NCBI RefSeq assembly: GCF_005845215.1
Contig: NZ_SPHO01000017.1
Coordinates: 1-64,000, forward strand
Direction: 5' to 3'
From: Clostridium sp. 1001271st1 H5
Lineage (GTDB): Bacteria; Bacillota; Clostridia; Lachnospirales; Lachnospiraceae
DNA length: 64,000 nucleotides
Positions 16,951 to 64,000 of this stretch are shown here, in pieces. A model generated the notes under the pieces. The model did no database searches and had not been told where the DNA came from. It saw only the letters and a program-made list of their open reading frames with translations. The position numbers and the translations under genes were made by a program. Within the stretch, counting starts at the first letter, position 1; the number at the start of each line of letters is the position of its first letter.

Positions 16951-16960
16951 AAATTATCTT

Positions 16961-18217: not shown

Positions 18218-18229
18218 AATCGTGTTATG

Positions 18230-19420: not shown

Positions 19421-19454
19421 TCCTACCTACCCAGCAAATCTTTATGTCAACACA

Positions 19455-20603: not shown

Positions 20604-20613
20604 AAATTATTTC

Positions 20614-21516
20614 TCACCTTTCATACGTTCCCATCACATCTATAACAGAATCATAAAGTGTATACCTGGGGTTCCACTTTGTATGATTCATGAACAGACT
20701 TGAATCCATTCCTGACCAAAGCTCAATATTTTGTTTTTCAAGTTTTATTTCTGGAACACCATAGCCTAACTGTATAGCGGCGCTTGCTATAATATTCGCA
20801 ACCTCAATTAAATTATATGTTTTTCTATTCCACCCTAAATTATAAACTCTATCCCACCCCTCCTTACTAAATAGTAATGTAACGATTCCAGCAGCAGCAT
20901 CTCTAGCGTCAATAAAAGAAAAAATTTGTTCTCCACCTCTTAAATAAATTGTTCCATTTAAAGCCTGATTACACAATGCTTTAATAAAACTGCTGCTTTG
21001 TGCTACTTTATCCAATCTAACATTAGTATAATCCTTTACTTTCGAATCAAAAAAACACTTATTAAAAATAATTTCTGTCGCATATTTGGCCATTGTATAA
21101 TGGTTGTCTGGCGCTGGACCCATACCTTCATATCGTATTTCCTTAACTGAACCATATATTCCTTGAGTTGAAACGTTTATAACACGTTTTACATTCATGC
21201 ATAACAATCGGTCAAATATCTTTAAGCTGTAGTCAATACTCGCTGCAATTTCTTTTTCAGGTCTCAGCCTCCGTGAAAATGCAAGATGTATACACCCATA
21301 TATTTCAGAAACAATACTACTATTTGAAAGGAAATCCTCATTTGACAAAAAAGTAATCCTTTCCTTTCCAGCTATTTCTTCTTGTTCCAACACAGCCTTC
21401 AATCTATCCTCTGATGATGCAATAGCTAAAATATCATAGTCTGTTGTTTTTATTAATATTTTGATTATTTTCGCCCCCAACATTCCATTAGCGCCCGTCA
21501 ATAATATCTTTTTCAT
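20614..21516 (-). CDS. NAD-dependent epimerase/dehydratase (extended SDR)
   Basis: A 300-residue extended short-chain dehydrogenase. The nucleotide-binding motif is GANGMLGAKI at residues 8-17. The catalytic Tyr and Lys are in HYTMAKYATE, with the Ser/Thr in NVSTQGIYG. Family members epimerise, dehydrate or reduce nucleotide sugars. Here the enzyme sits between two ATP-grasp genes and a glycosyltransferase, so it probably makes or finishes an activated sugar of the repeat unit. Which sugar is unknown. Confidence 0.77.
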   Translation of the reverse strand: MKKILLTGANGMLGAKIIKILIKTTDYDILAIASSEDRLKAVLEQEEIAGKERITFLSNEDFLSNSSIVSEIYGCIHLAFSRRLRPEKEIAASIDYSLKIFDRLLCMNVKRVINVSTQGIYGSVKEIRYEGMGPAPDNHYTMAKYATEIIFNKCFFDSKVKDYTNVRLDKVAQSSSFIKALCNQALNGTIYLRGGEQIFSFIDARDAAAGIVTLLFSKEGWDRVYNLGWNRKTYNLIEVANIIASAAIQLGYGVPEIKLEKQNIELWSGMDSSLFMNHTKWNPRYTLYDSVIDVMGTYER

Positions 21517-21583
21517 TTAAAACATTACACTCCTCCATTTCTTAAAAATTTGAAATATTGTTATGTATCCGTATTCTGCATCT

Positions 21584-22915
21584 TTACAAACAATAGTCCA
21601 GTTTATGAAGAACTTCCTGTGTATCATGAGGTGTTAAAATTATGTTGTTCCCATCTAAATCATAAATTTTATATAATTCATTCACCTTATCAATTCTTTC
21701 AATCAATTCCTCTTTTGTATCAGCATATAAATGTATTCTGGTAGTATCTTGTACTAAAGTACCTGCCGAATCTTCTGGAATTGTATCGCCAACTCTATTT
21801 CGTCTCGCAATATGAATTAACCAAGGATAGCTCTCCAATGCTTCAATCCCCCCAAAGCCACCTATAGTAGCTCCCGGCTGTCCTAAAACATTAAGTGTCG
21901 CATACCATCGCTTAAATCTAGGGTTGAAGTGTGTTTTCTTTCCCATACTACCTGTTAAAGCAAATTCCATCAATCTTTCAAATGTATTGAAATCATTCTC
22001 ATACTCAAGAATTTGATATGTCTTACATCCATTTAGTCTTATTCCCGCCTCATAGCAAAAAAGTTCATCTCCGTTTATAATCGCCTGTATAAACAAGGAC
22101 CCATTTTTTATACCTATTTCTTTTAACATATTGAGAATTATATTGTTATATTTTTGCAAAAATAGTGGTGTATAGCGTGAAGGATAAATATATAAATCCG
22201 GTGCCTTAGTGGCACTTTTTTGTGTAGTGTTAAAATATCTATCATGAATAGCCGCTAATTGTATATCTCCATTCTGGGCTATATATGTCAAATTAATTTC
22301 ATCATAAGGAAGGTACTGTTCAACAATAACATCCCCTGATTTTGACAATCTTTTTGCCTTTTGGAAACCCTTTTCTAATTCCACTGCAGAATAGCAAGGC
22401 GTAACGCCTACAGAACTTGAGCCGTCCACAGGCTTAATAATTACAGGATAGTCTATATCTGATTCTCGAATATCCTTTATACTAGTAATAAAATATTCCT
22501 TTGGAACAGGAACACCATATTTTATACACATTTGCTTAAAATATTTTTTATTTGTACTCATCCGAAGCTGATTAACTGTAAATGGTACTGGTTTCTGAAG
22601 TTTATCACCAATTCTGCTGACAACCGGTCCCAATCGCTCATTGAACGCAGATATAATTCCATCATATCCTTCATTTATAAAAAGCTTAACTATTGCGTCT
22701 TCATCGACTGCACTAACATCATGTACATAATCCGCCAGCCCTTTTACATACGTATTTTTATTATAATCTGCCACCCCTACCTTCACCCTATTACGATGCG
22801 CCAAATGAATCAAATCAGCTGTAGTATTTATACCACCTAATAATAATATTTTCTTATCGCATAAACTAACATCCAACATTGTTTTCGACCGCCCTTCCAC
22901 GATTATCCTTGCCAT
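21584..22915 (-). CDS. ATP-grasp ligase
   Basis: A 443-residue ATP-grasp enzyme, the larger of two adjacent ones. The N-terminal pre-ATP-grasp domain begins KKILLLGGINTTADLIHLA. The ATP-grasp core spans about 115-330: YPVIIKPVDGSSSVGV is the P-loop-like segment and GDVIVEQYLPYDEINLT follows. A 100-residue C-terminal region (GFGGIEALESYPWL, TRIHLYADTKEELIERI) recalls the lid domain of carbamoyl-phosphate-synthase-type ligases. ATP-grasp enzymes join a carboxylate to an amine or similar nucleophile through an acyl phosphate. A role in attaching an amino acid or acyl group to an amino sugar of the glycan is inferred. No strong ribosome site precedes 22915; ATG at 22879 is an alternative. Confidence 0.77.
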   Translation of the reverse strand: MARIIVEGRSKTMLDVSLCDKKILLLGGINTTADLIHLAHRNRVKVGVADYNKNTYVKGLADYVHDVSAVDEDAIVKLFINEGYDGIISAFNERLGPVVSRIGDKLQKPVPFTVNQLRMSTNKKYFKQMCIKYGVPVPKEYFITSIKDIRESDIDYPVIIKPVDGSSSVGVTPCYSAVELEKGFQKAKRLSKSGDVIVEQYLPYDEINLTYIAQNGDIQLAAIHDRYFNTTQKSATKAPDLYIYPSRYTPLFLQKYNNIILNMLKEIGIKNGSLFIQAIINGDELFCYEAGIRLNGCKTYQILEYENDFNTFERLMEFALTGSMGKKTHFNPRFKRWYATLNVLGQPGATIGGFGGIEALESYPWLIHIARRNRVGDTIPEDSAGTLVQDTTRIHLYADTKEELIERIDKVNELYKIYDLDGNNIILTPHDTQEVLHKLDYCL

Positions 22916-22930
22916 TTTTTTGACAGCTTA

Positions 22931-23899
22931 TCAATCTAACTGATATATCTCATACCGCTTTGCATAGTGCTTACCATAAGTAATCTTTCCAAAGTCACAA
23001 ATCTTACTGTCCGCTATCATCAATGCATTTAATACAAGATTACAACCTGCCATACATGTAAACCCACAACCAGCAGAAAACCTTGGATTTATTTCAATAA
23101 TTTTATAACCCATATTTGTCAAAAAAAATTCAGCATTAACAACGCCATGTAAATTTAGACTTAACATTAAATCGTTACATATAGATTTGAGTATTTCATC
23201 ATTTACTATTTCCACCGCAATACCACATCCGTTACCATTTCGTAGAAGCTCCTTTCGCTGGACCTGCTCTTTTTGTCCTGTTGCTGAATTTCTGATGAGG
23301 TCTACTGTAAAAATAGTTCCTTCAGTATACTTCTGAATCACATAAGCGTTAGGCTTATATCCAGTACCTGTAATAAACTCTTCTGCCATCCTTTTTGAAT
23401 CAAATCTTCTACAATCATTACTAGCTCTTCCTTCAACAGGCTTAATATAGATTGGAAACTCCTCTTCGGGAATATTTTCTAATCTATCAAATGTTTTAAT
23501 ATACAATTCCGGAAACTCTTTATGTATGTAAGATACAAATCTATCCTTATAATGACAGCATTCCACCAGGTCATAATTTGGAATGCACAAACGCACTCCT
23601 ATCTCATAAAATAAATCTCTGTGATTTGATAGGTTAACAACCTCTTCATCTATTGTTGGGAAATAAAAATTCACCTTTTTCTTTTTACAGAAATCTAGAA
23701 CAAAACATACAAAACCTTTAAAATTTTCTATCGCAGAAGGAAAACTATAAAATTCATTTACATCTTTTGCAGTTGCAACCTCATTTCGTGGAAAAATATC
23801 AGCTCCTATAATGTAGTATTCATTCGTCTCTTTCAACTTTGAAATAATTGTTGTTGATGCCATTGTCCCTATTGCCGTAACGAGAACAACTGATTTCAT
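22931..23899 (-). CDS. ATP-grasp ligase, second copy
   Basis: A 322-residue ATP-grasp enzyme, carbamoyl-phosphate-synthase-like in layout but not a duplicate of its neighbour. Residues 1-100 form the pre-ATP-grasp fold (SVVLVTAIGTMASTTIISKL). Then come FPIYIKPVEGRASNDCRRF near 150, YVIQKYTEGTIFTVDLI near 190 and the metal-binding end NAEFFLTNMGYKIIEINPRFSAG near 260. The E-N-P-R motif is intact, so the enzyme should be active. Its start overlaps the sugar transferase stop by four bases. It probably acts on the same substituent pathway as the adjacent ATP-grasp and epimerase; the substrate is unknown. Confidence 0.77.
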   Translation of the reverse strand: MKSVVLVTAIGTMASTTIISKLKETNEYYIIGADIFPRNEVATAKDVNEFYSFPSAIENFKGFVCFVLDFCKKKKVNFYFPTIDEEVVNLSNHRDLFYEIGVRLCIPNYDLVECCHYKDRFVSYIHKEFPELYIKTFDRLENIPEEEFPIYIKPVEGRASNDCRRFDSKRMAEEFITGTGYKPNAYVIQKYTEGTIFTVDLIRNSATGQKEQVQRKELLRNGNGCGIAVEIVNDEILKSICNDLMLSLNLHGVVNAEFFLTNMGYKIIEINPRFSAGCGFTCMAGCNLVLNALMIADSKICDFGKITYGKHYAKRYEIYQLD

Positions 23900-24732
23900 A
23901 CAATGTCTCCATTCACTAAACTATTTTCAATGCTGCGGGCATAACGCTCTTTGTATTTATTCATACTAATGGCAAAACCATCTTTATCATAACCAATAAA
24001 ATAACTCACACCTTGTCCTTTGGCTTGACCTTCTCGCTTCTTCAAATCGAAAACCATCTTTACCAGCAGACAACACATTTTAATATCTGTCATGAAGCTC
24101 ACATTTTCGATATACCATATATCGTTTTCATAAGTGTGATGGTATTTACATAAATCATCGTCAGTAACCTTAATAACACGTGGACATTCCAAACCAGGCC
24201 TCAATGCTGTCCTTTGTTTGTGTCTATCCGTCATTCTTTCATATATAAAAACAGGTGATGGTCTTGGACCTATAATTGACATATCGCCTTTTAACACGCT
24301 CCAAAAGTTAAGAAGCTCATCCAAAGAATATTTTCTCATTATACGTCCAAACTTTGTCACCCGCTGAGATGGTGGAAGCAACCTTCCATTCTCATCTTTT
24401 TTTTCATTCATATTTCTAAACTTAACCATGATAAATTGTTTTCCATGTCTGCCAATGCGTGTCTGTTTATAAAAAATAGGATGTCCCACATCAAAAAATG
24501 TACAGAGAGCAAAGACAACATTAAGCGGCAACAAAATAATTACTAATGGCAAAGAAATCAAAATATCTAGAATTCTTTTAATATATCGAGTATACAAAGT
24601 ATCTTTAGGACATACAGGTCGTGCTATCTCATTAGCATGAGAGAGATTCTCTTTACGAAGATGTTCCACAATACACTCTTCTTCAAATGAAAACAAATTT
24701 TTGTTTCCAACTATCGTTTCATCGGATATCAT
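23896..24732 (-). CDS. Undecaprenyl-phosphate phosphoglycosyl transferase (bacterial sugar transferase)
   Basis: A 278-residue monotopic phosphoglycosyl transferase that would start each repeat unit by moving a sugar phosphate onto undecaprenyl phosphate. A 50-residue N-terminal extension precedes YIKRILDILISLPLVIILLP, the reentrant membrane helix. The catalytic core has FMVKFRNMNE-like sequence, then RKYSLDELLNFWSVLKGDMSIIGPRP with the conserved Asp-Glu pair, and RPGLECPRVIKV. It is of the short PglC/WcaJ C-terminal kind without the four-helix N-terminal domain. It follows the cupin gene after one base, consistent with one operon. Confidence 0.85.
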   Translation of the reverse strand: MISDETIVGNKNLFSFEEECIVEHLRKENLSHANEIARPVCPKDTLYTRYIKRILDILISLPLVIILLPLNVVFALCTFFDVGHPIFYKQTRIGRHGKQFIMVKFRNMNEKKDENGRLLPPSQRVTKFGRIMRKYSLDELLNFWSVLKGDMSIIGPRPSPVFIYERMTDRHKQRTALRPGLECPRVIKVTDDDLCKYHHTYENDIWYIENVSFMTDIKMCCLLVKMVFDLKKREGQAKGQGVSYFIGYDKDGFAISMNKYKERYARSIENSLVNGDIV

Positions 24733-24733
24733 T

Positions 24734-25168
24734 TTACAACCCTTTCTTACCAGTCATTATTTCGATATACTGTTTGAAATCTCTAATATATTCAGTTTGG
24801 TCATAATGCTCACTACATAATACCAGTAAAACCGAATCTTCACTGAAATCATACATTTCCTTCCAAAGCATATTGGGAAGATATAAGCCTATATAGGGTC
24901 TGTTAAGATAATGGACTATTTCATTACCCTTACCATCCATAATCCTAACTTTACTGGTTCCTGCCACGTTTATTAGAACAAATTCTGTTTTTAGATTTGC
25001 ATGCTGACCTCGTACAACATCGTCTGACGAACCATAGATAAAGAAGATTCTTTTGATATCGAAAGGAACATCATAATTTCCCTCAGCAATAACCATGTTC
25101 CCTCTAAGGTCACCTTTTTTCGTAAATTCAAGCATTTTCACCTGACTTAAGATTGTTTCTTTCTCCAT
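24734..25168 (-). CDS. WxcM/FdtA-like cupin, putative dTDP-sugar 3,4-ketoisomerase
   Basis: A 144-residue single-domain cupin matching the FdtA/QdtA/WxcM group: FDIKRIFFIYGSSDDVVRGQHANLK, then TEFVLINVAGTSKVRI, RPYIGLYLPNMLWKEMYDF and VLLVLCSEHYDQTEYIRD. FdtA-type enzymes convert dTDP-4-keto-6-deoxyglucose to the 3-keto isomer for the following aminotransferase, which is the next gene upstream. The usual RGxHAH motif reads RGQHAN, so its second His is replaced by Asn; activity or substrate may differ. The ATG at 25168 is preceded by AAGGGGG ten bases away; a TTG at 25174 is possible. Confidence 0.77.
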   Translation of the reverse strand: MEKETILSQVKMLEFTKKGDLRGNMVIAEGNYDVPFDIKRIFFIYGSSDDVVRGQHANLKTEFVLINVAGTSKVRIMDGKGNEIVHYLNRPYIGLYLPNMLWKEMYDFSEDSVLLVLCSEHYDQTEYIRDFKQYIEIMTGKKGL

Positions 25169-25198
25169 TCTCAAAATGCCCCCTTAACCAATTTTTAA

Positions 25199-26293
25199 CT
25201 ATGAGAATCTATTTATCACCTCTATAACTGTCTGAATTTCATTATCAGTCATTCCATTATATAGAGGTAAACTTAAAACTTCCTTTGCATATCGTTCTGT
25301 TATCGGATAATCCCCCTCTTTAAACCCCAAGTATCTATAACATTCTTGCATATGCGGTGGTATTGGATAGTGAATGATTGCGCCTATTCCTTGTGACGCG
25401 AGTAAACATCTTAATTCGTCTCTTTTTTCACAATGAATTACATATTGATGATAAACATGTGTTGCACCAGTTCTTACTTCAGGTTTTTTAATCAATGCAT
25501 TCGTTATTCCTTCATTGTACTTCTTAGCTATATTCTTACGTTCTGTAGTTAACTCTTCTAAGTGTGAGAGTTTTATGCGTAACAAACCAGCTTGTATCTC
25601 GTCTAGTCGAGAATTGTAACCTATGTATTTATTGTAATAGCGTTTCTCGCTTCCGTAATTCCGAAGAATTCTAACCTCATCAGCCAAATCAGCATCATTC
25701 GTAATTATCGCTCCTCCATCTCCAAACGCCCCCAAATTCTTTGATGGATAAAATGAAAAACATCCAAAATCGCCAAATGTACCTGTTTGTCTCTCTTCCC
25801 ACATCGCACCATGTGACTGTGCACAATCTTCAACCACCCTCAAATTATATTTTTTAGCCACTTTCATTATAGAAGTCATATTGCTTGCCTGCCCATATAA
25901 ATGCACTACAAGAATAGCTTTGGTTCTATCTGTAATTGCAGATTCCAGCCTTGAGGCATCAATTAAGTCGTATTCATCCGGTTCAATAAATACTGGTGTT
26001 GCACCGTTCATGGTAATTCCCATAATGCTTGCGATATATGTATTTCCCTGGACTAATACTTCATCTTCCGGACCAATCTTTAAAGCCCTAAAAGCAATCT
26101 GTAACGCATCAAGACCGCTCGCCAAACCTCTACAGTATCTAGCATTAGCATAAGCAGCAAATTCATTTTCGAATGCTTCTACCTGTTTTCCTAGTACATA
26201 CCAGCCAGATTGAAGTACCTCAATTGCCTTCGCCTCATATTCTTCCCTATACTTTTCATACCCTCTATCAAGTCGTTGCTGTGGAATATTCAT
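25199..26293 (-). CDS. DegT/DnrJ/EryC1-family sugar aminotransferase (FdtB-like)
   Basis: A 364-residue PLP-dependent aminotransferase that adds an amino group to a keto-sugar nucleotide. The active-site segment reads VEDCAQSHGAMWE, then GCFSFYPSKNLGAFGDGGAI, where the Lys of SKNLG forms the PLP imine. Substrate-loop motifs GYNSRLDEIQAGLLRIKL and YHQYVIHC fit the VioA/FdtB subgroup. With the neighbouring ketoisomerase-like cupin it predicts a 3-amino-3,6-dideoxyhexose; the dTDP-glucose enzymes RmlA and RmlB must be elsewhere. The ATG follows AAAGGGAGA. It is the first gene of the AT-rich block, which ends abruptly just upstream. Confidence 0.85.
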   Translation of the reverse strand: MNIPQQRLDRGYEKYREEYEAKAIEVLQSGWYVLGKQVEAFENEFAAYANARYCRGLASGLDALQIAFRALKIGPEDEVLVQGNTYIASIMGITMNGATPVFIEPDEYDLIDASRLESAITDRTKAILVVHLYGQASNMTSIMKVAKKYNLRVVEDCAQSHGAMWEERQTGTFGDFGCFSFYPSKNLGAFGDGGAIITNDADLADEVRILRNYGSEKRYYNKYIGYNSRLDEIQAGLLRIKLSHLEELTTERKNIAKKYNEGITNALIKKPEVRTGATHVYHQYVIHCEKRDELRCLLASQGIGAIIHYPIPPHMQECYRYLGFKEGDYPITERYAKEVLSLPLYNGMTDNEIQTVIEVINRFS

Positions 26294-46757: not shown

Positions 46758-47969
46758 CTATTCATAGCGCAGCGCATCTATAGGGTCTGCCTTTGCCGCC
46801 TTGGAGGCAGGGTACAGCCCAAAGAAAATGCCGACCACGGCTGAGAATGACACCGCGACCACAATAACCCCTGGTTTTATGACAACTGCAAATCCCAGCA
46901 GCAGACCGCCCAGGGATACGGTTCCCACTCCCAGTATGACTCCGATGATGCCGCCGCAGGCTGACAGGATGGCCGATTCCGTCAAAAACTGGACCAGCAC
47001 ATCCCCGGTCCTTGCGCCCAGGGCTTTCCGGATACCGATTTCCCTGGTGCGCTCCGTCACGGACACCAGCATGATGTTCATGATGCCGATGCCGCCTACC
47101 AGCAGTGAGATGGCTGCAATGCCGCCCACTGCCATGGACAGGTTGCCCATCATGCTGTCCACCGAGGTCATTTCCTGCATGGCCGTGTACATGTACATAT
47201 CCTCCGGCTCCCTGCCGTGCATCTTGGCCGCATACGCCTTAAACTGGCTGAAGAACTGGTCCAGGTTCACATCGTCCTTTGCATACACATGGAGCTGGTA
47301 AAAATAGTCATTGGGCCAGGTCAGAAGGGTATAGGGTATGAAGGCCGACCCCTTGTCACTGCTGCCGCCCATCATCAGGGCCTGAAGGGCGTTTTGTTCC
47401 TTGCGGTACACGCCCACCACCGTAAAGTCATCGGTGGAGCCATATAAAGTGGTGCGGAAGGACCGTCCCACTGCATTCTCAGTGCCGAACAGCATCTGGG
47501 CGCTCTTGGTGTCCATGACCACATTCTTTCTTCTGCCCAGGATATCCCCCTGGTTGAGGTAACGGCCGTACACCACGTTCACCGGCTGGACGTCCTGGTA
47601 ATTGTAGTCAATTCCCTGATAATCAAATTTAATCTTTGTCCGCTTGTACTCCGCATCGCTGCTGGTATAGGCGTTGCTGTCTATATAGGCAATCTGGTCC
47701 TTAAAGGCCTCCCTGGCCCGTTCCATCTCATCCAGGGTAAAATAATCGCTCTGCCGCGTATCATCCAGCCAGTAACCAACGGAAACATAGGCCTGGGTAA
47801 TACCCACGTCCTTATACAAATCCGAGAAAAGCCCCCGCATGGTATCTCCAATGGATACAATGGCTATGACGGAACCAATGCCGATAATGATTCCCAGCAT
47901 GGTCAGGGCGGAACGCATCTTATTGGAACGGATGGCTGAAAATGCCATTTTCATATTTTCAATCAGCAT
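46758..47969 (-). CDS. MacB/FtsX-type ABC transporter permease
   Basis: A 403-residue permease with the MacB topology: one N-terminal helix (ALTMLGIIIGIGSVIAIVSIGD), a large extracytoplasmic domain (about 45-270) and three C-terminal helices (MSLLVGGIGIMNIMLVSVTERTREIGIRKALGAR and onward). The ERTREIGIRKALGA motif contacts the ATPase. MacB works by mechanotransmission with a MacA adaptor rather than by moving substrate through the membrane. The ATG at 47969, with GGAGG upstream, overlaps the ATPase gene by 11 bases; a longer frame reaches 48014. Confidence 0.87.
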   Translation of the reverse strand: MLIENMKMAFSAIRSNKMRSALTMLGIIIGIGSVIAIVSIGDTMRGLFSDLYKDVGITQAYVSVGYWLDDTRQSDYFTLDEMERAREAFKDQIAYIDSNAYTSSDAEYKRTKIKFDYQGIDYNYQDVQPVNVVYGRYLNQGDILGRRKNVVMDTKSAQMLFGTENAVGRSFRTTLYGSTDDFTVVGVYRKEQNALQALMMGGSSDKGSAFIPYTLLTWPNDYFYQLHVYAKDDVNLDQFFSQFKAYAAKMHGREPEDMYMYTAMQEMTSVDSMMGNLSMAVGGIAAISLLVGGIGIMNIMLVSVTERTREIGIRKALGARTGDVLVQFLTESAILSACGGIIGVILGVGTVSLGGLLLGFAVVIKPGVIVVAVSFSAVVGIFFGLYPASKAAKADPIDALRYE

Positions 47970-48750
47970 CCTGCTCCCCTCCCTTCCCCTTCTCTGAGGC
48001 GCCGCGGGCTGCATTCAGCCTGTCGCTCTGTATCTGTCCGTCGCTGAACCGTATGATACGGTGGGCAAAGGCAGCTATATCCTCCTCATGGGTGACCAGC
48101 ACCACGGTGGCCCCTTCCTGGTGAAGCCTGGAAAACAGCTCCATGATTTCCACCGAGGATGCGGTGTCCAGGTTTCCTGTGGGCTCGTCTGCCAGAATCA
48201 GAGGCGGTTCATTGGCCAGGGCCCTGGCTATGGCGACCCTCTGCCTCTGGCCTCCGGACAGCTCGTTGGGCATGTGTTCCTTCCTTGCCCCCAGTCCCAC
48301 CCGTTCCAAAAGCATCTGGGCCCTGGCCGCCCGTTTGGCTTTGGGCACCCTGGCATAGGTCATGGGAAGCTCCACATTCTTTAGGGCCGATGTCCTGGAT
48401 ATCAGATTAAAGGACTGGAATACAAACCCTATTTTCCGGTTCCTGATATCGGAGAGCTGATCCGGCGTCATGTCCGCCACATCAATGCCGTCCAGGTAAT
48501 AGTGTCCCAGGGTAGGACGGTCCAGACACCCAAGTATATTCATCAGGGTGGACTTTCCGGACCCGGAGTGTCCCATAATGGCCACAAACTCCCCCCGCTC
48601 AATGGTAAGGTTTATCTTTTTAAGTCCCAGTACCTTGATGGCGCCGGTATCATATATCTTCACCAGGTTCTCCAGCTTAATCAGAGGTCCGTCACAGACC
48701 ATTTCCTGCGTCTGCCTGTCCCTGTGCAAAAACTTTATCCACTTATTCAT
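47959..48750 (-). CDS. MacB-type ABC transporter ATP-binding protein
   Basis: A 263-residue ATPase of the LolD/MacB group. Walker A is [11 protein letters not shown], the Q-loop [10 protein letters not shown], the signature [15 protein letters not shown] and Walker [13 protein letters not shown]; the switch His is in VLVTHE. In E. coli MacB the ATPase is fused to the permease, while here they are separate, translationally coupled genes. An acidic, Gly/Ala-rich tail ([13 protein letters not shown]) ends the protein. Confidence 0.9.
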
Positions 48751-55994: not shown

Positions 55995-57227
55995 ATGAAA
56001 GAAAAAGTAGTTTTAGCTTATTCCGGCGGACTGGATACCACCGCAATCATTCCGTGGTTAAAGGAGCATTTTGGTTATGAAGTCATCTGCTGCTGCATTG
56101 ACTGCGGCCAGGGCAGTGAATTGGACGGCCTGGATGAGAGAGCCAAATTATCCGGGGCTTCCAAATTATATATTGAAGATTTAGTGGATGATTTCTGTGA
56201 CAACTACATCATGCCCTGTGTAAAGGCAAATGCAGTATATGAAAACAAATACCTCTTAGGCACCTCCATGGCCCGTCCTGCCATTGCCAAGAGACTGGTT
56301 GAGATTGCACGCAAGGAAGGCGCCTCAGCCATCTGCCACGGCGCCACCGGCAAGGGCAATGACCAAATCCGCTTTGAGCTGGGCATCAAGGCCCTGGCTC
56401 CGGACATCAAAATCATTGCTCCATGGCGTATGACCGATGTATGGACCATGCAGTCCAGGGAGGATGAGATTGAATACTGCAAGCAGCACGGCATTGACCT
56501 GCCCTTCTCAGCAGACAGCAGCTACAGCCGCGACAGGAACTTATGGCATATCAGCCATGAAGGCCTGGAGCTGGAGGACCCGTCACAGGAGCCCAATTAC
56601 GAGCACCTGCTTGTGCTTGGCGTAACGCCTGAAAAGGCGCCGGACCAAGGCGAGTACGTGACCATGACCTTTGAGAAAGGCGTTCCCACCAGCGTGAACG
56701 GACAGAAAATGAAGGTTTCCGATATCATCCGCAAGCTAAATGAGCTGGGCGGAAAACACGGCATCGGCATTGTGGATATCGTGGAAAACCGCGTGGTGGG
56801 CATGAAGTCCCGCGGCGTGTATGAGACGCCAGGCGGAACCATTCTTATGGAAGCCCACCAGCAGCTGGAAGAACTTGTATTAGACCGCGCCACCATGGAG
56901 ACTAAGAAAACCATGGCCGACAAGATGGCGCAGATTGTTTACGAGGGCAAGTGGTTCACGCCTCTGCGCGAGGCTGTTCAGGCATTTGTGGAGTCCACCC
57001 AGGAATATGTGACAGGCGAAGTGAAATTCAAACTGTATAAGGGCAACATCATCAAGGCCGGAACCACATCCCCATACTCCTTATACAGCGAATCCCTGGC
57101 TTCCTTCACCACAGGCGACCTGTATGACCATCATGACGCAGACGGCTTCATCACCCTGTTCGGACTGCCCCTTAAGGTCAGGGCCATGAAAATGGCTGAG
57201 GTGGAATCCGCCAAAAAGGGCCAGTAA
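55995..57227 (+). CDS. argG: Argininosuccinate synthase
   Basis: A 410-residue ATP-dependent ligase joining citrulline and aspartate. The PP-loop is [16 protein letters not shown] with the motif at residues 8-17. [29 protein letters not shown] near 92 and [15 protein letters not shown] near 115 are diagnostic. LYSESLASF is near the C-terminus. The ATG at 55995 has AGGAGG eight bases upstream; the longer frame to 55953 overlaps the promoter. It is divergent from argC; argF and argH are not in the window. Confidence 0.93.
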
Positions 57228-57247
57228 ATACGGCGTAAACAGAAAAG

Positions 57248-57290
57248 AAATGCCCCGGAGAGGTTGGATATTTCCAGCTCCGGGGCATTT
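57248..57290. terminator. Terminator between argG and the fusion lipoprotein gene
   Basis: AAATGCCCCGGAG (57248-57260) pairs perfectly with CTCCGGGGCATTT (57278-57290). It is followed by TTCTTTCC on the plus strand and by TTTCTTTTC on the minus strand, so it can serve both converging genes. Confidence 0.85.
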
Positions 57291-57323
57291 TTCTTTCCTG
57301 CTTCTATAAGGTATTTAACCGCA

Positions 57324-59585
57324 TTAATCCAGATGTATCCTGTTTTTCTCCACATCCAGCCCTTCCGGCATATTGATAATCCGAATCCTTCCGTCGGTGG
57401 TAACCGGCTCAAGCACCCCGTTTACACTGTGGCTTTCTATATAGGCAATCACAGCATCAATAATATTGGGCTGGTTCCTGGCCCAGTCCGTTATCTGCTG
57501 GTACTGCTGGTCATAGGCGTCCGTGTTCAGGTCAAAAAGCCGGCAGGCCGCCTCATTCTCCGGGTCAAATGTCTGGTAGACGGCAATGCCCTGGGGAAGC
57601 GCGGCAGGTTTATCCGGCGGAAGTATGGTGAATGCATCCCAGCTGTCGCTGCCCCCCAGCTCATAATCAGTGGTCGTGACCGTATACCAGGCCTCCGGGT
57701 CCACCGGCTCTCCGTTTGACAGGCGCACATCGCTGATTTCAGCCTTTCCCCCATATGCATTTTCCTCCACAGGCTCATAGGTAATGGTATAGGTAAAGCC
57801 GGAGGGTATCACCATGCCGCCGAACACGCCGGACTGGTCCGACCGCACTGCGTCAGTCAGGTTGTTGGTGGAAAGAATGGATATCAGGTTGGCGCCCTTG
57901 CAGCGCACGGTAATAACATGGTTGTTCAGACCATAGAGCATGGATGTGGCCAAATCAGACTCTGTTATCTCCCCTGCCTCCAGCTCCGCTGTCAGGGTGC
58001 CTGCATTGATGGCTGCCAGGTCTGCGCCTGTGTACTGGCGCAGGGCATCGGCCAGCAGGTTCCCCAGGGCTGATTCATTGGAACGTGAAAATATGCGCAC
58101 ATAATTGTACGCCTTATCTGTTTTTCCTATGACATGGTCCGGCACCTGGTAACGGTTTTTTCCTGTGGTGCGGTACTCCTCCAGTGCATCCAGCATCCCT
58201 TCGGTGCCGCCGACTTTCATGTAGGAGCTGGCTCCCTCCAGACCGGCATAATACTTCTGGCCGCACAGGTAATGGCGCAGGGCAAAGGTAAACAAATCTG
58301 AACCGTAAAACTGGTACGGGTTCTTTACAATGGAATTTTCCGTAAGGCACTGGTAAAACTCAGGATGGGTATCCTGAAAATAATCGTATTTTAATGTGTC
58401 ATCCCGGCGGTAATAGGTGGTTGCGCCCACCGGAACCGTAGCACTGTAATATTCCGGCGCAAACTCCGTGGAGGCCACATATTCCAGATACAGGCGGCAG
58501 GCCTTTAGGACAGCCTCGTCTGTGATGTTCGCATTGATTCCCAGGTACCAGTCTCCATTGGTGGCCAGCCAGCGGTCCTCCTTTGTGCGGCCCATATAGG
58601 GTATGAATACAAAATCCCGGGCAGGCACCCATACCTGCCTGCCGTTCTTTTCAATTTTATAGCTTGGGACACCGTTCACATCCTTTATTTTTTCCTCAAA
58701 ATGCATTGCGTAATCAACGTAGCTCACTGAGCACATGACTGCGTTTCCCCGAACCACTTCCCGCAGGTTCTGTTTGCTGCTCATCAGGAAGTCGCCGTTC
58801 TGGTACAGCCCAAGGCCTTCCAGCTCCTCAATCCCCCTGAGAACACGGGCAAAGGCCGGATTTTCAAAGGATACCTCCGCCGGATTATTCCGGTACCGGT
58901 TCAGCCACTGCACATATTCACTGTCCGTGTAAGCATCCAGCAGAAAGGGCATGGCCACCACTGCCGCAGCGTCATTGTAAAGCATCCCGAACGCATAGGC
59001 CCGCACCCCTGTCTCCTCCCTCTGCGCCTGAATCTGGCGGCAGAGTTCCATGAACTCCTCCTGGGTCCGGGGCATGCTGTATCCCAAATCCGTCAACAGC
59101 TGCTGATTCACCATCAGCCCTGAGATGTATCCGTTGCCCACAGGCAGCGCATACACCTTCCCCCCTACCTCTGCATCATTCAGGGCGCTAATCATGTAAT
59201 TCTTCAAAAACGGTTCCGATGTCAAATCCTTCAGATAACCGCTCTGGACATAGGTATAATAATCCTGTGTATAGAGGATTTCCGGTCCCCCTCCGCTGCG
59301 CACGGCTGACAGCTGGGCATTTTCCATCTTAGGTCCGATTTCATAGGTGCTTTCTATTTTCACATCCGGCATGGTGCGGTGGATATATGCCTCAGCCTGC
59401 TCCGTATTGATGTTCTCACCCATGGTATTGTACACGTGAAGCACCACCGGCTCCTCAGCCGGCGCAGACCCGCTCTGCTGCTTCTTATCCTCTGTGGCCG
59501 CAGTATCGCCCGGAGCCCCGCATCCGGTTGCAGCCCATATCAGCAGCAGTCCCAGAAGCAGCCCGATTCCCACCTGTTTCTTCAT
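57324..59585 (-). CDS. Lipoprotein fusing a sugar-type solute-binding domain to a 5'-nucleotidase C-terminal domain
   Basis: A 753-residue lipoprotein with lipobox AATGC and lipidated C22. Residues of about 45-430 form an ABC-type extracellular solute-binding domain (family 1): VLHVYNTMGENINTEQAEAYI, GGPEILYTQDYYTYVQSGYL, VYALPVGNGYISGLMVN, WYLGINANITDEAVLKACRLY. Residues of about 490-660 match the 5'-nucleotidase C-terminal domain: SRSNESALGNLLADALRQYTGADLAAINAGTL, split, then NHVITVRCKGANLISIL and YELGGSDSWDAF. The N-terminal metallophosphoesterase domain of nucleotidases is missing, and the Arg of the usual NGGGIR motif is replaced. No ABC permease is nearby. It follows the hybrid kinase gene by 86 bases, so a sensory partner role is likely. 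The ATG at 59585 has AGAAGGA upstream. Confidence 0.75.
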   Translation of the reverse strand: MKKQVGIGLLLGLLLIWAATGCGAPGDTAATEDKKQQSGSAPAEEPVVLHVYNTMGENINTEQAEAYIHRTMPDVKIESTYEIGPKMENAQLSAVRSGGGPEILYTQDYYTYVQSGYLKDLTSEPFLKNYMISALNDAEVGGKVYALPVGNGYISGLMVNQQLLTDLGYSMPRTQEEFMELCRQIQAQREETGVRAYAFGMLYNDAAAVVAMPFLLDAYTDSEYVQWLNRYRNNPAEVSFENPAFARVLRGIEELEGLGLYQNGDFLMSSKQNLREVVRGNAVMCSVSYVDYAMHFEEKIKDVNGVPSYKIEKNGRQVWVPARDFVFIPYMGRTKEDRWLATNGDWYLGINANITDEAVLKACRLYLEYVASTEFAPEYYSATVPVGATTYYRRDDTLKYDYFQDTHPEFYQCLTENSIVKNPYQFYGSDLFTFALRHYLCGQKYYAGLEGASSYMKVGGTEGMLDALEEYRTTGKNRYQVPDHVIGKTDKAYNYVRIFSRSNESALGNLLADALRQYTGADLAAINAGTLTAELEAGEITESDLATSMLYGLNNHVITVRCKGANLISILSTNNLTDAVRSDQSGVFGGMVIPSGFTYTITYEPVEENAYGGKAEISDVRLSNGEPVDPEAWYTVTTTDYELGGSDSWDAFTILPPDKPAALPQGIAVYQTFDPENEAACRLFDLNTDAYDQQYQQITDWARNQPNIIDAVIAYIESHSVNGVLEPVTTDGRIRIINMPEGLDVEKNRIHLD

Positions 59586-59671
59586 AATCCTTCTCCCTCT
59601 TTCCCGGGTATTTTGTCCATCGCCATGGCAGCCCAGGGACCCATCCCCCATCCGGCTCCCCAGGCCGCCCC

Positions 59672-62600
59672 TTAGCCCAGCAGGCCCCGCAGCTCCTCCA
59701 TATTGATTGGCTTTGTCAGAACAGCTCCGAATCCTGCCCTGGCTGCCTCCGCCCGCACCTCATCCTCGCTGCTGGATGTAAATGCAAAGATTGGAATGGT
59801 TCCCGCGCTATTCTTGCGGCTGCCCCGGATAGCTGCCGCTGCCTCAAAACCGTTCATGACCGGCATATGCAAATCCAGCAGAATGGCGTCATATGTGCCG
59901 TCCATAGCATCAACATATGCCTCCAGGGCCTGGCGTCCGTTCTCCACGGCGTCCACCTGCTGGCCGTCCGCCCGTATCAGCTCCACTGCAATTTCCCGGT
60001 TCAGTTCATTGTCCTCTGCCAGCAGCAGCCGCAGACAGCGTCCCTCGCGCCGTACCCGCGCAATCTCCTTTGCCAGGATTGTGAAATCAATTGGCTTTGG
60101 AACAAAGCCGTTCATCCCTGCCTCAAGAGTCTCCCTGCGGTCCTCCTCAAAGGCATTGGCTGTCAGTGCGATAATGGGTATGGCTGCTGCCTGCGGGTGG
60201 CTGCTTCTCCGTATCCTGCGGGCTGCATCCAGCCCTCCCAGAACAGGCATCTGCAAATCCATGAGAATCACATCGTATGTATGCTCAGGAGCTTCCAGAA
60301 AACGGCTGCATCCCTCTTCCCCGTCCCTGGCGGTATCCACCTCTGCTCCCATAAGTCCTGAGAGCATTTCCACTGCGATTTCCAGATTGACTGCATTGTC
60401 CTCCACCACCAGCAGATGCATGCCCTTTAATACTCCGGCCAGCCCGCCGGACGTGTTCTCGCTCTGCCCCAGCATTCCGGTGATTTTCCGGTACAGGTTC
60501 ATCCTGAACAGCGGCAGGCTGATTGTATGGTTAAATCCCTTCTGTCTAAGTTCCTCAGACAGTTCCTGCTCATCCGGTTTCAGTCCCAGCAGCAAAAGGG
60601 TGCTGCCGCCCAAATCCCGCCTCAGTCCTTCTCCGGTTAATGCCTGGTCAAAACGCAGCATCTTATAGGGAAGAAATACCAGGGAAAACGGATGCCCTGC
60701 CGCCCTTTTCCCGGCTGCCAGGGACACTGCTGCCTGATAGTCTGTCTTCCAGGCTCCGTCCACACCGATTTCCTCCAGCTTTCTCACTGCATCCCGGCAT
60801 TTTACCTCGCTGCCCGGCTCGCCGATAACCAGCATGGCGCAGCCGGCTGCCAGCGGCACATGGCGGCTGCCCAGACGGATGGAAAGCTCAATGGTAAAGG
60901 TGGTGCCCTCACCCGGCTCGCTTTCCACGCGGATGGTGCCTCCCATCAGGTCCACAATGCGCTTGGTGATGGCCATGCCCAGGCCCGTGCCCTGGATTCC
61001 CTGGCTGTAGGAATTCTGGTCCCGCGAGAACATATCGAAAATCCGGCTCATATATTCCGGGCTCATACCCACGCCCGTATCGCTTACCTGAAACACGTAG
61101 CGGGCAAATGCAGGCTCCGGCGACTGCACTTCCGTGATATCCAGACGGATTTCCCCGTCCTTCGGCGTAAACTTTACGGCATTGCCCAGCACATTGGTAA
61201 GCACCTGGCCTAAGCGCACCGTGTCGCCGCACAGCAGTTCATGGGTGATATTCCAGACATTGACGTCAAAATGCTGGCTGCGCACACTTGTCTGGGACTG
61301 GGTCACCGTGACCACGCCGGACAGCCATTCGCCCAGCTCAAACTCAGTCTCGGCCAGCTGCATTTTGCCGGATTCAATTTTAGACATATCCAGCACATCG
61401 TTAATCAGCCCCAGCAGCAGCTTGGAGGAATTGGCGATTTTCTGAAGGCATTCCGTTACCTTCTTGCTGTCCTCCGGTGAATACAGAGCCAGGTTGGTCA
61501 GGCCGATTACAGCGTTCAGGGGCGTACGGATATCATGGCTCATGCTTGCCAGGAACGTGCTCTTGGCGGCATTGGCCCGCGCCTCGCTCTCCAGCGCCTC
61601 CTCCAGACGCCTGCGGGACTGTACCCGTTCCGTGATATCCTCCAGCGTCAGGGTGATAAAGCGCTGGCTGCTGTCCTGTTCCGCAATCAGATAGGCATTA
61701 AGGGACAGCACGATATCCTTGCGGGTGTCGGGGCGGGTAAAGCGCAGCTTCAGGCTGCCGCTGGCACACTCCCCCTTACGGATTCGGCTGATAAGGTCCA
61801 GAACCGCCTGGCGGTCGCTGTCATTGATACAGCATAAAAACTTTTCTTCTATGACATTTTCAAATGCATCCTCAATCCCCAGAACCTGGTCCGTATTGCG
61901 GGACGCATACTCAATGGCCCCGCTTGTACTGTCTGCAATGACAATGACATTGGGCACATAATGGGTCATAAGGGTGAAAATCCGGTCGCGGCGCACAGCT
62001 TCCCTGGATGCGTTGGCCCGCACCACAAATACCAGCATGATTACTATCACCAGAAACATACCCAGCATCAGCGCAATGATGAACACGGTCAGATGGATGG
62101 TTTCCTGGTTAATCTGCACTGCATCTGCCGTAATGTGGTCATAGGAAACACAGGAGATAAAATCCCATCCGGTTCCCGGAACCGGCGCATACACAAGCTC
62201 ATACCGGGAATCCCCGAAATAAATCTCGGCGCTGCCGCTTTTATCGTTCCTGAAATCCCACAGCACCCTGTCACAGTCCGTCCTGCCCTGGTCATCCGGA
62301 GTAAAGAATCCTGCATTTTTAGGATTTTCCTCAAAATATGTAAACAGATTTAGGGATTCCCCCAGCTCCTGGTTTACATGGGTGCGGGAGAGAATCAGAC
62401 CCGAATCAGTGGTAATCATATAGGACGCATTGTCCCCAAAGGTGGTGGAATCATAGAGGGACCGGAAGGAATCCTGGCTGTAGATGCCAATCAGTATGAC
62501 TGAGCCCGTACGGCAGGAAAATGCAACCACATCCTTGCCGGAAGCGCTGAACGGGTCTGATATAAAGCTGATTGCCTCCCCGTCCGGACTGGTCAGGCAG

Positions 62601-63040
62601 TCCACATATGCCTGGCTGGAATACAGGTTGATGGGTTTCACAGCCGTTCCCTCGCTGTACACGCCGCGGCCGGATTCATTCAGCAGCACACAGTAATCGA
62701 ATACGGACACCCTGTTAAAATCCCGGATATAACTGCGGTCCTCCTCACTGAGTCCGTCCATGGAGTCAAAGCCGTTCTCCTTCAAATCTTCGGACATGCC
62801 GATTCCCAGCACGCGTATCTCATGCTGGCAGTGATTGAATCCTTCTGTTGTTTTGGAAATCAGGGTATTGGTTGTCTCCTTCAGCGCAGAGATATTGGAA
62901 TTAATGATACGGTCATAGATGTCTCTGCGGTATCCTTCCAGAAAATAAGACAATGACAGGTAAAATACAATCGCGAGAGCGATGCAGACCGCTATGGTCG
63001 CAGGCAGAGAAAACTTATGTTTTTTTCGTATCTGTTTCAT
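59672..63040 (-). CDS. Hybrid sensor histidine kinase with dCache-like sensor and two receivers
   Basis: A 1122-residue membrane kinase. It has one helix (about 12-34), an extracytoplasmic dCache-like sensor (about 36-305), a second helix (about 315-342) and a PAS domain (about 355-470). HisKA follows with H502 in SMSHDIRTPLNAVIG, then HATPase_c (about 610-725: LGNAVKFTPKDG, DTGVGMSPE, GTGLGMAITK). Residues of about 740-865 look like a degenerate receiver with no phosphoacceptor. Two intact receivers end the protein: VVEDNAVN with VILMDLQMPVLGG, and LAEDNELN with AILLDLHMPVMNG. There is no HPt or DNA-binding domain, so signal output must pass to an unlinked protein. It is the first gene of a two-gene unit with the fusion lipoprotein. 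Confidence 0.87.
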   Translation of the reverse strand: MKQIRKKHKFSLPATIAVCIALAIVFYLSLSYFLEGYRRDIYDRIINSNISALKETTNTLISKTTEGFNHCQHEIRVLGIGMSEDLKENGFDSMDGLSEEDRSYIRDFNRVSVFDYCVLLNESGRGVYSEGTAVKPINLYSSQAYVDCLTSPDGEAISFISDPFSASGKDVVAFSCRTGSVILIGIYSQDSFRSLYDSTTFGDNASYMITTDSGLILSRTHVNQELGESLNLFTYFEENPKNAGFFTPDDQGRTDCDRVLWDFRNDKSGSAEIYFGDSRYELVYAPVPGTGWDFISCVSYDHITADAVQINQETIHLTVFIIALMLGMFLVIVIMLVFVVRANASREAVRRDRIFTLMTHYVPNVIVIADSTSGAIEYASRNTDQVLGIEDAFENVIEEKFLCCINDSDRQAVLDLISRIRKGECASGSLKLRFTRPDTRKDIVLSLNAYLIAEQDSSQRFITLTLEDITERVQSRRRLEEALESEARANAAKSTFLASMSHDIRTPLNAVIGLTNLALYSPEDSKKVTECLQKIANSSKLLLGLINDVLDMSKIESGKMQLAETEFELGEWLSGVVTVTQSQTSVRSQHFDVNVWNITHELLCGDTVRLGQVLTNVLGNAVKFTPKDGEIRLDITEVQSPEPAFARYVFQVSDTGVGMSPEYMSRIFDMFSRDQNSYSQGIQGTGLGMAITKRIVDLMGGTIRVESEPGEGTTFTIELSIRLGSRHVPLAAGCAMLVIGEPGSEVKCRDAVRKLEEIGVDGAWKTDYQAAVSLAAGKRAAGHPFSLVFLPYKMLRFDQALTGEGLRRDLGGSTLLLLGLKPDEQELSEELRQKGFNHTISLPLFRMNLYRKITGMLGQSENTSGGLAGVLKGMHLLVVEDNAVNLEIAVEMLSGLMGAEVDTARDGEEGCSRFLEAPEHTYDVILMDLQMPVLGGLDAARRIRRSSHPQAAAIPIIALTANAFEEDRRETLEAGMNGFVPKPIDFTILAKEIARVRREGRCLRLLLAEDNELNREIAVELIRADGQQVDAVENGRQALEAYVDAMDGTYDAILLDLHMPVMNGFEAAAAIRGSRKNSAGTIPIFAFTSSSEDEVRAEAARAGFGAVLTKPINMEELRGLLG

Positions 63041-63177
63041 CTGCCGTACCTCGCTTTTCCGGAAACCACATGACTTTGAATAGCTTTAACTATTATTATA
63101 TTATTGAGCGGCCCATTTGTCAATTTCACAAAACAGAGCCTCCCGCCGGCCGCATACTGCTTCATACTGCATAAAAC

Positions 63178-63226
63178 GGAAAACAGACCTGTGAAGAAAA
63201 AGCCTGTTCTCCACGGGTCTGTTTTT
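63178..63226. terminator. Terminator of the transketolase gene
   Basis: GAAAACAGACC (63178-63188) pairs with GGTCTGTTTTT (63216-63226), extended by a TGTG/CACG partial pairing. It carries T-runs on both strands and lies 16 bases past the transketolase stop codon on the minus strand. Confidence 0.75.
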
Positions 63227-63241
63227 GCTGCTCTTATATTT

Positions 63242-64000
63242 CTACAGCGACTTCACGGCTGCCACAACATTCTCAACCGTAAATCCGAATTTCTTAAAGA
63301 GCTGTCCGGCCGGTGCGCTGGCGCCAAAGCCTTTCATGGTCACTGTGGTTCCGTCAAGGCCCACATATCTGCCCCAGCCGAAATCGCCCAGTGCCTCTAC
63401 TGCAACTCTCTTTCTCACTGCCTTTGGAAGGACCTTCTCCTTGTAGTCCTCAGGCTGCTCCTCGAATACATCCATGCTCGGCATGCTGACAACGCGTACA
63501 TCCACGCCCTCTTTTGCCAGTTCAGCCTTTGCACCCACTGCCAGTTCCACCTCGGAACCAGTGGCAATGATGATGGCATCCGGAACTTCCTTCGCGGAAT
63601 CCTCCAGGATGTAGGCGCCCTTTAACGCCTCCTTGCTGGAGCCGGCCAGCTGGGGCAGGTTCTGCCTTGTGAGCACCAGGGCCGTGGGCGTCTTCCTGGA
63701 GGACACGGCGCTGTACCATGCGGCTGCTGTCTCCGTGGCGTCGGCCGGACGGTATACATGGAAATTAGGCATGGCGCGCAGCATGGCCAGCTGCTCGATA
63801 GGCTCATGGGTAGGTCCGTCCTCTCCCACGCCGATGCTGTCATGGGTAAACACAAAGGTAAGGGGCACGCCCATAAGCGCGGACAGCCTTGCCATTGGCT
63901 TTGTATAATCACTGAACACAAAGAAGGTGGACACGAACGCCCTCAGGCCGCCGTGAAGCATGAGGCCGTTTCCGATGGCGGACATGGCCAGCTCGCGCAC
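63242..64000 (-). CDS. tkt: Transketolase, C-terminal part (cut by the window edge)
   Basis: The last 252 residues of a transketolase; the gene runs off the right edge. The pyrimidine-binding domain holds FVFSDYTKPMARLSALM, THDSIGVGEDGPTHEPIEQLA and the thiamine-contacting DATETAAAW. The C-terminal domain follows (ALVLTRQNLPQLAGS, AIIIATGSEVELAVGAK, GWGRYVG). The enzyme moves two-carbon units between sugar phosphates in the pentose phosphate pathway. In a heptose context it also supplies sedoheptulose 7-phosphate, the precursor of the HldE pathway. There is no sign that this copy is truncated biologically. Confidence 0.92.
   Translation of the reverse strand: MRELAMSAIGNGLMLHGGLRAFVSTFFVFSDYTKPMARLSALMGVPLTFVFTHDSIGVGEDGPTHEPIEQLAMLRAMPNFHVYRPADATETAAAWYSAVSSRKTPTALVLTRQNLPQLAGSSKEALKGAYILEDSAKEVPDAIIIATGSEVELAVGAKAELAKEGVDVRVVSMPSMDVFEEQPEDYKEKVLPKAVRKRVAVEALGDFGWGRYVGLDGTTVTMKGFGASAPAGQLFKKFGFTVENVVAAVKSL

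Follow-up and report, generated by a model that had tools for sequence, protein, structure and literature searches.

A solute-binding/5'-nucleotidase C-domain fusion lipoprotein recurrently encoded next to a Cache-type hybrid kinase in Clostridia: a probable three-component sensor

The lipoprotein and kinase genes of the window

The DNA analyzed, hereafter the window, is a stretch of 64,000 nucleotides from Clostridium sp. 1001271st1 H5 (Lachnospiraceae; assembly GCF_005845215.1, contig NZ_SPHO01000017.1, positions 1 to 64,000). Its reverse strand encodes a hybrid sensor kinase followed by a lipoprotein that joins a solute-binding domain to the C-terminal, substrate-recognition domain of 5'-nucleotidases. 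Based on domain content and on the conserved pairing of such genes among relatives, the two probably form a three-component sensor in which the lipoprotein acts as the co-receptor that binds the ligand for the Cache-type kinase. The features of the pair are the following.

57324..59585, reverse strand: lipoprotein of 753 aa from ATG 59585, proposed ligand-binding co-receptor (open reading frame, Pfam, lipobox)
58440..59366, reverse strand: solute-binding domain SBP_bac_8, residues 74-382 of the 753-aa protein (E 1.2e-9)
57627..58133, reverse strand: 5'-nucleotidase C-terminal (substrate-recognition) domain, residues 485-653 of the 753-aa protein (E 6.5e-24)
59672..63040, reverse strand: hybrid sensor kinase of 1122 aa (Pfam, hydropathy, H-box and Asp motifs)
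62105..62932, reverse strand: kinase residues 37-312, the extracytoplasmic sensor domain on which the lipoprotein is proposed to dock (transmembrane (TM) positions; dCache_1 E 0.00023)

Both open reading frames (ORFs) were intact. The longest lipoprotein ORF (775 aa) begins at 59651; the true start is likely ATG 59585, with a purine-rich stretch ahead of it and a signal peptide and lipobox Cys22 (assigned by eye) after it. From this ATG, the gap to the kinase stop codon amounts to 86 bases, the distance given in the original prediction made from the DNA letters. In a Pfam scan of the 775-aa ORF, SBP_bac_8 (PF13416) matched residues 96-404 (E 1.3e-9) and 5_nucleotid_C (PF02872) residues 507-675 (E 6.9e-24); no further family appeared up to E 1, hence no metallophosphoesterase domain. 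The proposed nucleotidase substrate domain devoid of its catalytic partner was thereby recovered, and so was a solute-binding domain, though of the SBP_bac_8 family and not of family 1 (SBP_bac_1) as first proposed.

The hydropathy profile of the kinase gave TM1 at residues 8-36, an extracytoplasmic dCache-like domain at 37-312 (approximately 276 aa) and TM2 at 313-346. Pfam matches followed to a weak PAS domain (364-471, E 0.019), HisKA (492-558, 3.7e-17), HATPase (605-720, 2.1e-31) and two receivers (1.2e-43), one at 877-993 and another, assigned by eye, at about 1003-1117. The phospho-acceptor motifs are present (H-box at 501, receiver Asp motifs at 924 and 1053), and this combination of HisKA, HATPase, receivers and acceptor motifs is that of a hybrid histidine kinase. 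The C-terminus consists of the receivers, with no output domain. Among the NCBIfam matches of the kinase core were LuxQ and TorS, far below the cut-off.

Two further elements frame the pair.

63095..63123, reverse strand: putative promoter of the pair, TTGACA, 17 nt, TATAAT (12/12 consensus match)
57235..57305, reverse strand: terminator-like hairpin between the lipoprotein gene and convergent argG (-39.7 kcal/mol, z -8.1)

Nine promoter-like sites were found in 57180-63300 (shuffle mean 5.5), and only the one upstream of the kinase scored above 9/12. The stability of the hairpin was equaled in none of 200 shuffles; a terminator scan of the same region did not list it. Kinase and lipoprotein genes apparently constitute a bicistronic unit with predicted promoter and terminator, flanked by genes for argininosuccinate synthase (argG) and transketolase (Pfam). 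In the window between 46001 and 64000, no importer permease was matched by two MalF/MalG-type queries, other permease types not being searched; a MacB-like exporter (by eye) lies at 46758-48750, approximately 8.6 kb from the pair.

Recurrence of the fusion and of its kinase partner

Searches with the window protein identified two fusions in other genera and one more in the window's own 6.5-Mb genome; a third fusion of this genome was found by reading the surroundings. All five initial fusions adjoin a kinase, that of L015 being interrupted by a frame break (L-numbers denote genome stretches fetched around matches). With an alignment of the five fusions (A1), we then searched 17 genus and 397 family genomes and chose loci by match length and reach; four loci from other families were added. 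At the genus loci L083-L087, kinase matches nearby were already visible before fetching. An ORF was called a fusion when it matched our own solute-binding and C-terminal profiles at E 1e-3, and neighbors were assigned with our own profiles or queries at the same threshold.

With the window and the seeds counted, 72 fusion ORFs were obtained in 66 loci, and for 60 of them a same-strand hybrid kinase lies no more than 200 bases away. The kinase lies downstream of the fusion in 33 cases, upstream in 18 and on both sides in nine, so that either gene order occurs among the 51 one-sided pairs. When the window, the seeds and the genus loci were left out, 52/63 fusions were paired; in the second fetching round, 16/23. 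A held-out set of 11 near full-length profile matches not fetched before had a hybrid kinase next door in nine cases, and in one of the exceptions (L218) the neighbor is a kinase with a separate receiver ORF behind it. L216 also contains a fragment of 166 aa that passed the fusion call; it was excluded from the 11. With Pfam at E 0.001, L216 and L218 showed the C-terminal domain but no solute-binding protein (SBP) family, and L217 showed neither.

As controls we used 20 nucleotidases from the same searches, each with PF00149 and PF02872; the script had counted 21 ORFs carrying only the C-domain, one of which was a fragment of the broken L086 gene. None of the 20 nucleotidases has a hybrid kinase as neighbor, and L141 alone adjoins a kinase of another type. 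At the control loci, 0/113 ORFs of at least 250 aa adjoin a hybrid kinase versus 56/335 other ORFs at the fusion loci; the latter presumably flank, for the most part, the same kinases as the fusions. The conserved pairing expected in the original prediction is borne out by these counts.

Among the 12 unpaired fusions, that of L015 has the frame-broken kinase, those of L104 and L105 have a Cache-GGDEF-EAL protein as partner, those of L164 and L187 stand next to another fusion that has a kinase, and four lie at contig ends (L108, L185 twice, L196). The pair stayed constant while its flanks varied: the one flank to which a name could be given was L-fucose isomerase in L010 and an M20 peptidase in L084 versus argG and transketolase in the window, the kinases of L010 and L084 being orthologues of the window kinase with 90% and 77% identity. 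With the two permease queries, no match was found in any of the 66 fetched fusion loci, so the same-operon permease typical of an ABC importer SBP was not seen there either; the absence of an ABC permease partner claimed for the window protein held within this search.

A near full-length fusion is present in at least 50 of the 397 family genomes (that of the window included; only the best candidates per genome were scored). Four genomes of other families in a 291-genome sample of the class contain the fusion, each time adjoining a kinase directly or via a tandem copy, and 299 genomes sampled across the phylum yielded no further full-length fusion at E 1e-50.

The domain composition was followed in an alignment of 43 fusions (A2), from which the broken L086 copy was left out, as was L108, whose frame is the continuation of a transporter-like frame upstream and extends to the end of the contig. 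At E 0.01, Pfam assigned 5_nucleotid_C to 36 and SBP_bac_8 to 30 of the 43; a metallophosphoesterase domain was absent from all 43 and present in 20/20 control enzymes. The lipobox cysteine column is invariant (43/43), and a simple lipobox pattern was found in 64 of the 72 fusion ORFs. An origin of the fusion in a frame or assembly artefact, which would have voided the original prediction, was ruled out, since it recurs as a single open frame with the same domain order in dozens of genomes. The gene is interrupted in one close relative's draft contig (L010/L086). In L108 (1643-4160), the transporter-like frame (EamA-like by eye) runs without a stop into the fusion frame at the contig end, as a real fusion or an assembly effect.

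Several arrangements of the cassette depart from one lipoprotein per kinase. Two tandem fusion lipoproteins accompany one kinase in L164 (5393-12386) and L187 (5563-11979), and three fusions and two kinases stand in a row in L118 (62-11265); the tandem fusions look as if one receptor had alternative co-receptors. Elsewhere a second hybrid kinase next to the fusion has its start overlapped by a small related SBP (L192:9077-9892, L194:2560-3375, L199:2551-3366, L120:2508-3323), so that two SBP-kinase cassettes lie back to back; the small protein of L192, the sole one scanned, is an SBP_bac_3. A transketolase gene lies just upstream of the window pair (63242-64000) and also of the kinase-less fusion in L193 (3341-5326), possibly by chance with two loci. 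Distant from the pair, an AT-rich island at 14105-26293 of the window (GC about 31-35% versus about 46-53% on either side) encodes, judged from the translations, a heptose-type kinase/nucleotidyltransferase, a flippase, a polymerase-like membrane protein, glycosyltransferases and a sugar transferase; it looks like a surface polysaccharide cluster, apparently imported.

Sensor domains, nucleotidase pocket and candidate output

Of the 69 partner rows, 62 show two membrane spans with an extracytoplasmic domain of some 240-280 residues between them. An alignment (A3) of 64 partner N-termini was built from 62 of 68 kinases and the two EAL partners, six atypical or short N-termini being left out. 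The original prediction of a dCache-like sensor was only partly reproduced with the window kinase alone, in which dCache_1 stayed under the Pfam cut-off (E 0.0022 with the whole protein, 0.00023 with the first 360 aa); 36 of the 64 partner sensors matched dCache_1 at E 0.01, the best at 5.6e-14. The closest solved relative of the partner-sensor profile was the chemoreceptor PctA (E 3.6e-4).

This profile retrieved 12 proteins from the window's genome (where the window kinase itself has 22 matches at E 1e-50), and the top three were exactly the three fusion-paired kinases, including that of L015, which is not part of the profile. Six of the 12 have an SBP or a fusion beside them on the same strand, and one is convergent to a fusion. 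Single-domain SBP lipoproteins adjoin Cache-type hybrid kinases of this genome at L174:5521-10133, L179:2807-7011 and L236:95-3549, and at these three pairs no permease match was obtained. Pairs of an SBP-only lipoprotein and a hybrid kinase make up a broader class that includes the fusion as one special case. Cache-GGDEF-EAL or Cache-GGDEF proteins with sensors similar to those of the fusion partners, but with no SBP found beside them, are encoded in the same genome at L240:5566-7833, L241:4986-6863, L237:4389-6692 and L239:5935-8160, the first following a SIMPL-domain lipoprotein-like gene. A fusion stands beside a Cache-GGDEF-EAL protein instead of a kinase at L104:5478-9675 and L105:5417-9625.

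For the C-terminal domain, we take R375, R379, R410 and D504 of UshA to be the phosphate- and ribose-binding residues. UshA stacks the purine between F429 and F498 (PMC7922932); CD73 holds the phosphate by R354 and R395, the ribose by D506 and the adenine by F417 and F500 (PMC7508162). Five of the six UshA positions (R379, R410, the aromatic residues at 429 and 498, and D504, not R375) are kept in 14 of the 43 aligned fusions, with F or Y at 429 and Y at 498; the remaining clades have lost most of the pocket. For the pocket-keeping clade, these residues predict nucleotide or nucleoside binding. The window protein has R at positions 375 and 379, Y at 498 and T in place of R410; position 429 was L in two alignments and Y in a third, and D504 was not aligned. 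Its orthologue in L084 shares the residues at 375, 379, 410 and 498. The nucleoside or sugar-nucleotide ligand originally proposed therefore has a good candidate in the pocket-keeping clade and a weaker case in the window protein, because R410 of the pocket is replaced by T.

In a quickly built tree of C-terminal domains, a single branch separated the 72 fusions from the 20 enzyme domains (SH-aLRT 96), consistent with one recruitment of the nucleotidase domain, although long branches counsel care; a FastTree run on the same question left this split unresolved. The fusions also clustered in the solute-binding tree (support 0.86), with two SBP-only proteins inside (L121, L181) that have perhaps lost the C-terminal domain.

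Only three HPt matches were obtained in the window's genome; one lies in a frame of 680 aa, probably CheA. A related regulator of 460-520 aa was found near 12 of the 66 fusion loci versus 0/20 control loci (L017:12947-14401, L015:7245-8675, L014:8042-9598, L101:9502-10971 and others). Each of the four regulators scanned contains two GntR stretches in one chain, and in the window's genome a protein of this tandem-GntR type is also the neighbor of the kinase in two SBP-only pairs (L174, L179). The window pair has none beside it. We regard this regulator as the best candidate for the output.

A co-receptor mechanism, its alternatives and known systems

The pair has the features of SBP-dependent three-component sensors: adjacent SBP and kinase genes in an apparent operon, no permease match and an extracytoplasmic sensor domain. 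We infer ligand binding, docking on the Cache domain, kinase control and output as follows. The lipoprotein would be anchored outside the membrane and bind a small molecule with its MBP-like solute-binding domain; a second, nucleotide- or nucleoside-like ligand would probably be bound by the 5'-nucleotidase C-terminal domain, at least in the pocket-keeping clade. The loaded lipoprotein would dock on the Cache domain of its partner and change kinase autophosphorylation, and the phosphate would pass to the kinase's own receivers and on to a regulator. In a minority of relatives, the tandem-GntR-type protein near the pair may be this output, and in the two relatives with a Cache-GGDEF-EAL partner the signal would lead to cyclic-di-GMP. 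The original suggestion, capture of a ligand by the lipoprotein and presentation of that ligand to the kinase, is the likeliest reading and has precedents.

Several observations weigh against this co-receptor role. No partner lies within 200 bases of three of the 72 fusions (L193, L198 and one in L194; for the last, the closest kinase on the same strand is some 600 bases away), and the second held-out exception, L217, has no partner at all (1/11). With our own queries, five of the 12 sensor-profile proteins of the window's genome have no SBP beside them; four of these are Cache proteins with GGDEF, three also with EAL. The Cache family thus extends beyond the pair, and the two EAL partners may be neighbors by chance. 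Distance matrices of 50 of 52 unambiguous pairs (two were dropped as missed by the H-box pattern) gave a Spearman coefficient for the lipoprotein of 0.33 with the sensor versus 0.30 with the catalytic core (partial 0.21 versus 0.16); 0/999 permutations reached the sensor value, and the comparison is weak, barely favoring the sensor over the core. Two AlphaFold models from two-row alignments were unusable (mean pLDDT 41 and 32).

SBP_bac_8 proteins usually serve importers. The lipoprotein could accordingly be an orphan transport SBP for permeases encoded elsewhere, with the kinase a mere neighbor or its regulator, and some SBP-only relatives do adjoin permeases, accompanied there by YesM-type kinases or AraC-type regulators (L018, L166, L168, L171, L172, L177). 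Two Pseudomonas SBP-kinase neighbor cases without interaction, described in PMC11113362, speak for such an orphan and against a co-receptor alike. The lack of any MalF/MalG-type match at the 66 fusion loci and the pairing kept in both gene orders while the flanks change make this explanation unlikely. A residual nucleotidase activity that supplies its product to the kinase would fit the homology of the C-terminal domain to that of 5'-nucleotidases; we consider it highly improbable, as none of the 43 fusions and all of the 20 control enzymes have the metallophosphoesterase, and the isolated C domain of E. coli CpdB is inactive (PMC7922932).

Within the three-component sensor itself, the role of the extra domain can be seen in two ways. 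Only the SBP domain may sense, and the nucleotidase domain would then be a scaffold for holding or orienting the lipoprotein at the kinase. Divergent clades keep the domain though their pocket residues are gone; L121 and L181, nested among the fusions, still have a hybrid-kinase partner, and other SBP-only proteins adjoin hybrid kinases as well (L169, L170, L173-L176, L179, L180), so pairing does not depend on the extra domain. The choice of SBP-only loci was not random: for L121, L179, L180 and L181, a nearby kinase match was the reason for fetching them. A pure scaffold would have no need of the five pocket positions kept in 14 of 43 fusions, and we hold this explanation as plausible without favoring it. 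Alternatively, the fusions may be a family of two-input co-receptors, in which the SBP domain and the retired nucleotidase domain each bind their own ligand (e.g. a sugar and a purine nucleotide or nucleoside) and report both to one Cache receptor, while beneath this constant sensing pair the output module is swapped (hybrid kinase, cyclic-di-GMP enzyme). This more far-reaching version is possible but doubtful; if true, it would mean extracellular nucleotide sensing in Clostridia by a former enzyme domain that now acts as a receptor.

Only about 10 SBP-activated kinases have been characterized according to PMC9602780. The size of the present family suggests widespread, uncharacterized sensing of molecules outside the cell. 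The conserved lipoprotein provides each kinase with a soluble protein that is open to direct ligand screening; the pocket-keeping clade leads to the sharp prediction that these cells sense extracellular nucleotides or nucleosides. A literature search, with subscription journals mostly outside its reach, found no description of this fusion with a kinase.

Among known systems, LuxP-LuxQ and TorT-TorS also combine an SBP with a hybrid kinase; they are Gram-negative, belong to other SBP families and are not known to have an added nucleotidase domain. In the XylFII-LytS system of Clostridium, said to have been described by Li et al. in 2017, a permease-less SBP lipoprotein reportedly activates the kinase via the extracellular domain of the latter; its SBP family and kinase class are reportedly different and its SBP has a single domain. 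UshA, CpdB and CD73 share the homologous C-terminal substrate-recognition domain, of which one fusion clade keeps most pocket positions; unlike these enzymes, the fusion has a solute-binding domain in place of the metallophosphoesterase, and no catalysis is expected. In CuaD-CuaS-CuaR of Ruminiclostridium cellulolyticum, also of the Clostridia, the SBP gene is likewise adjacent to the sensor genes, the SBP CuaD binds both a sugar and the kinase CuaS, and use of the sugar is better in the strain that has the three-component system (PMC10384115). That system has a separate response regulator and not a hybrid kinase and serves a cellobiose importer regulon, and the abstract and introduction of the paper mention no 5'-nucleotidase domain (PMC10384115). 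The present pair is set apart from CuaD-CuaSR and XylFII-LytS by its added 5'-nucleotidase domain, its hybrid kinase and the occasional GGDEF-EAL partner.

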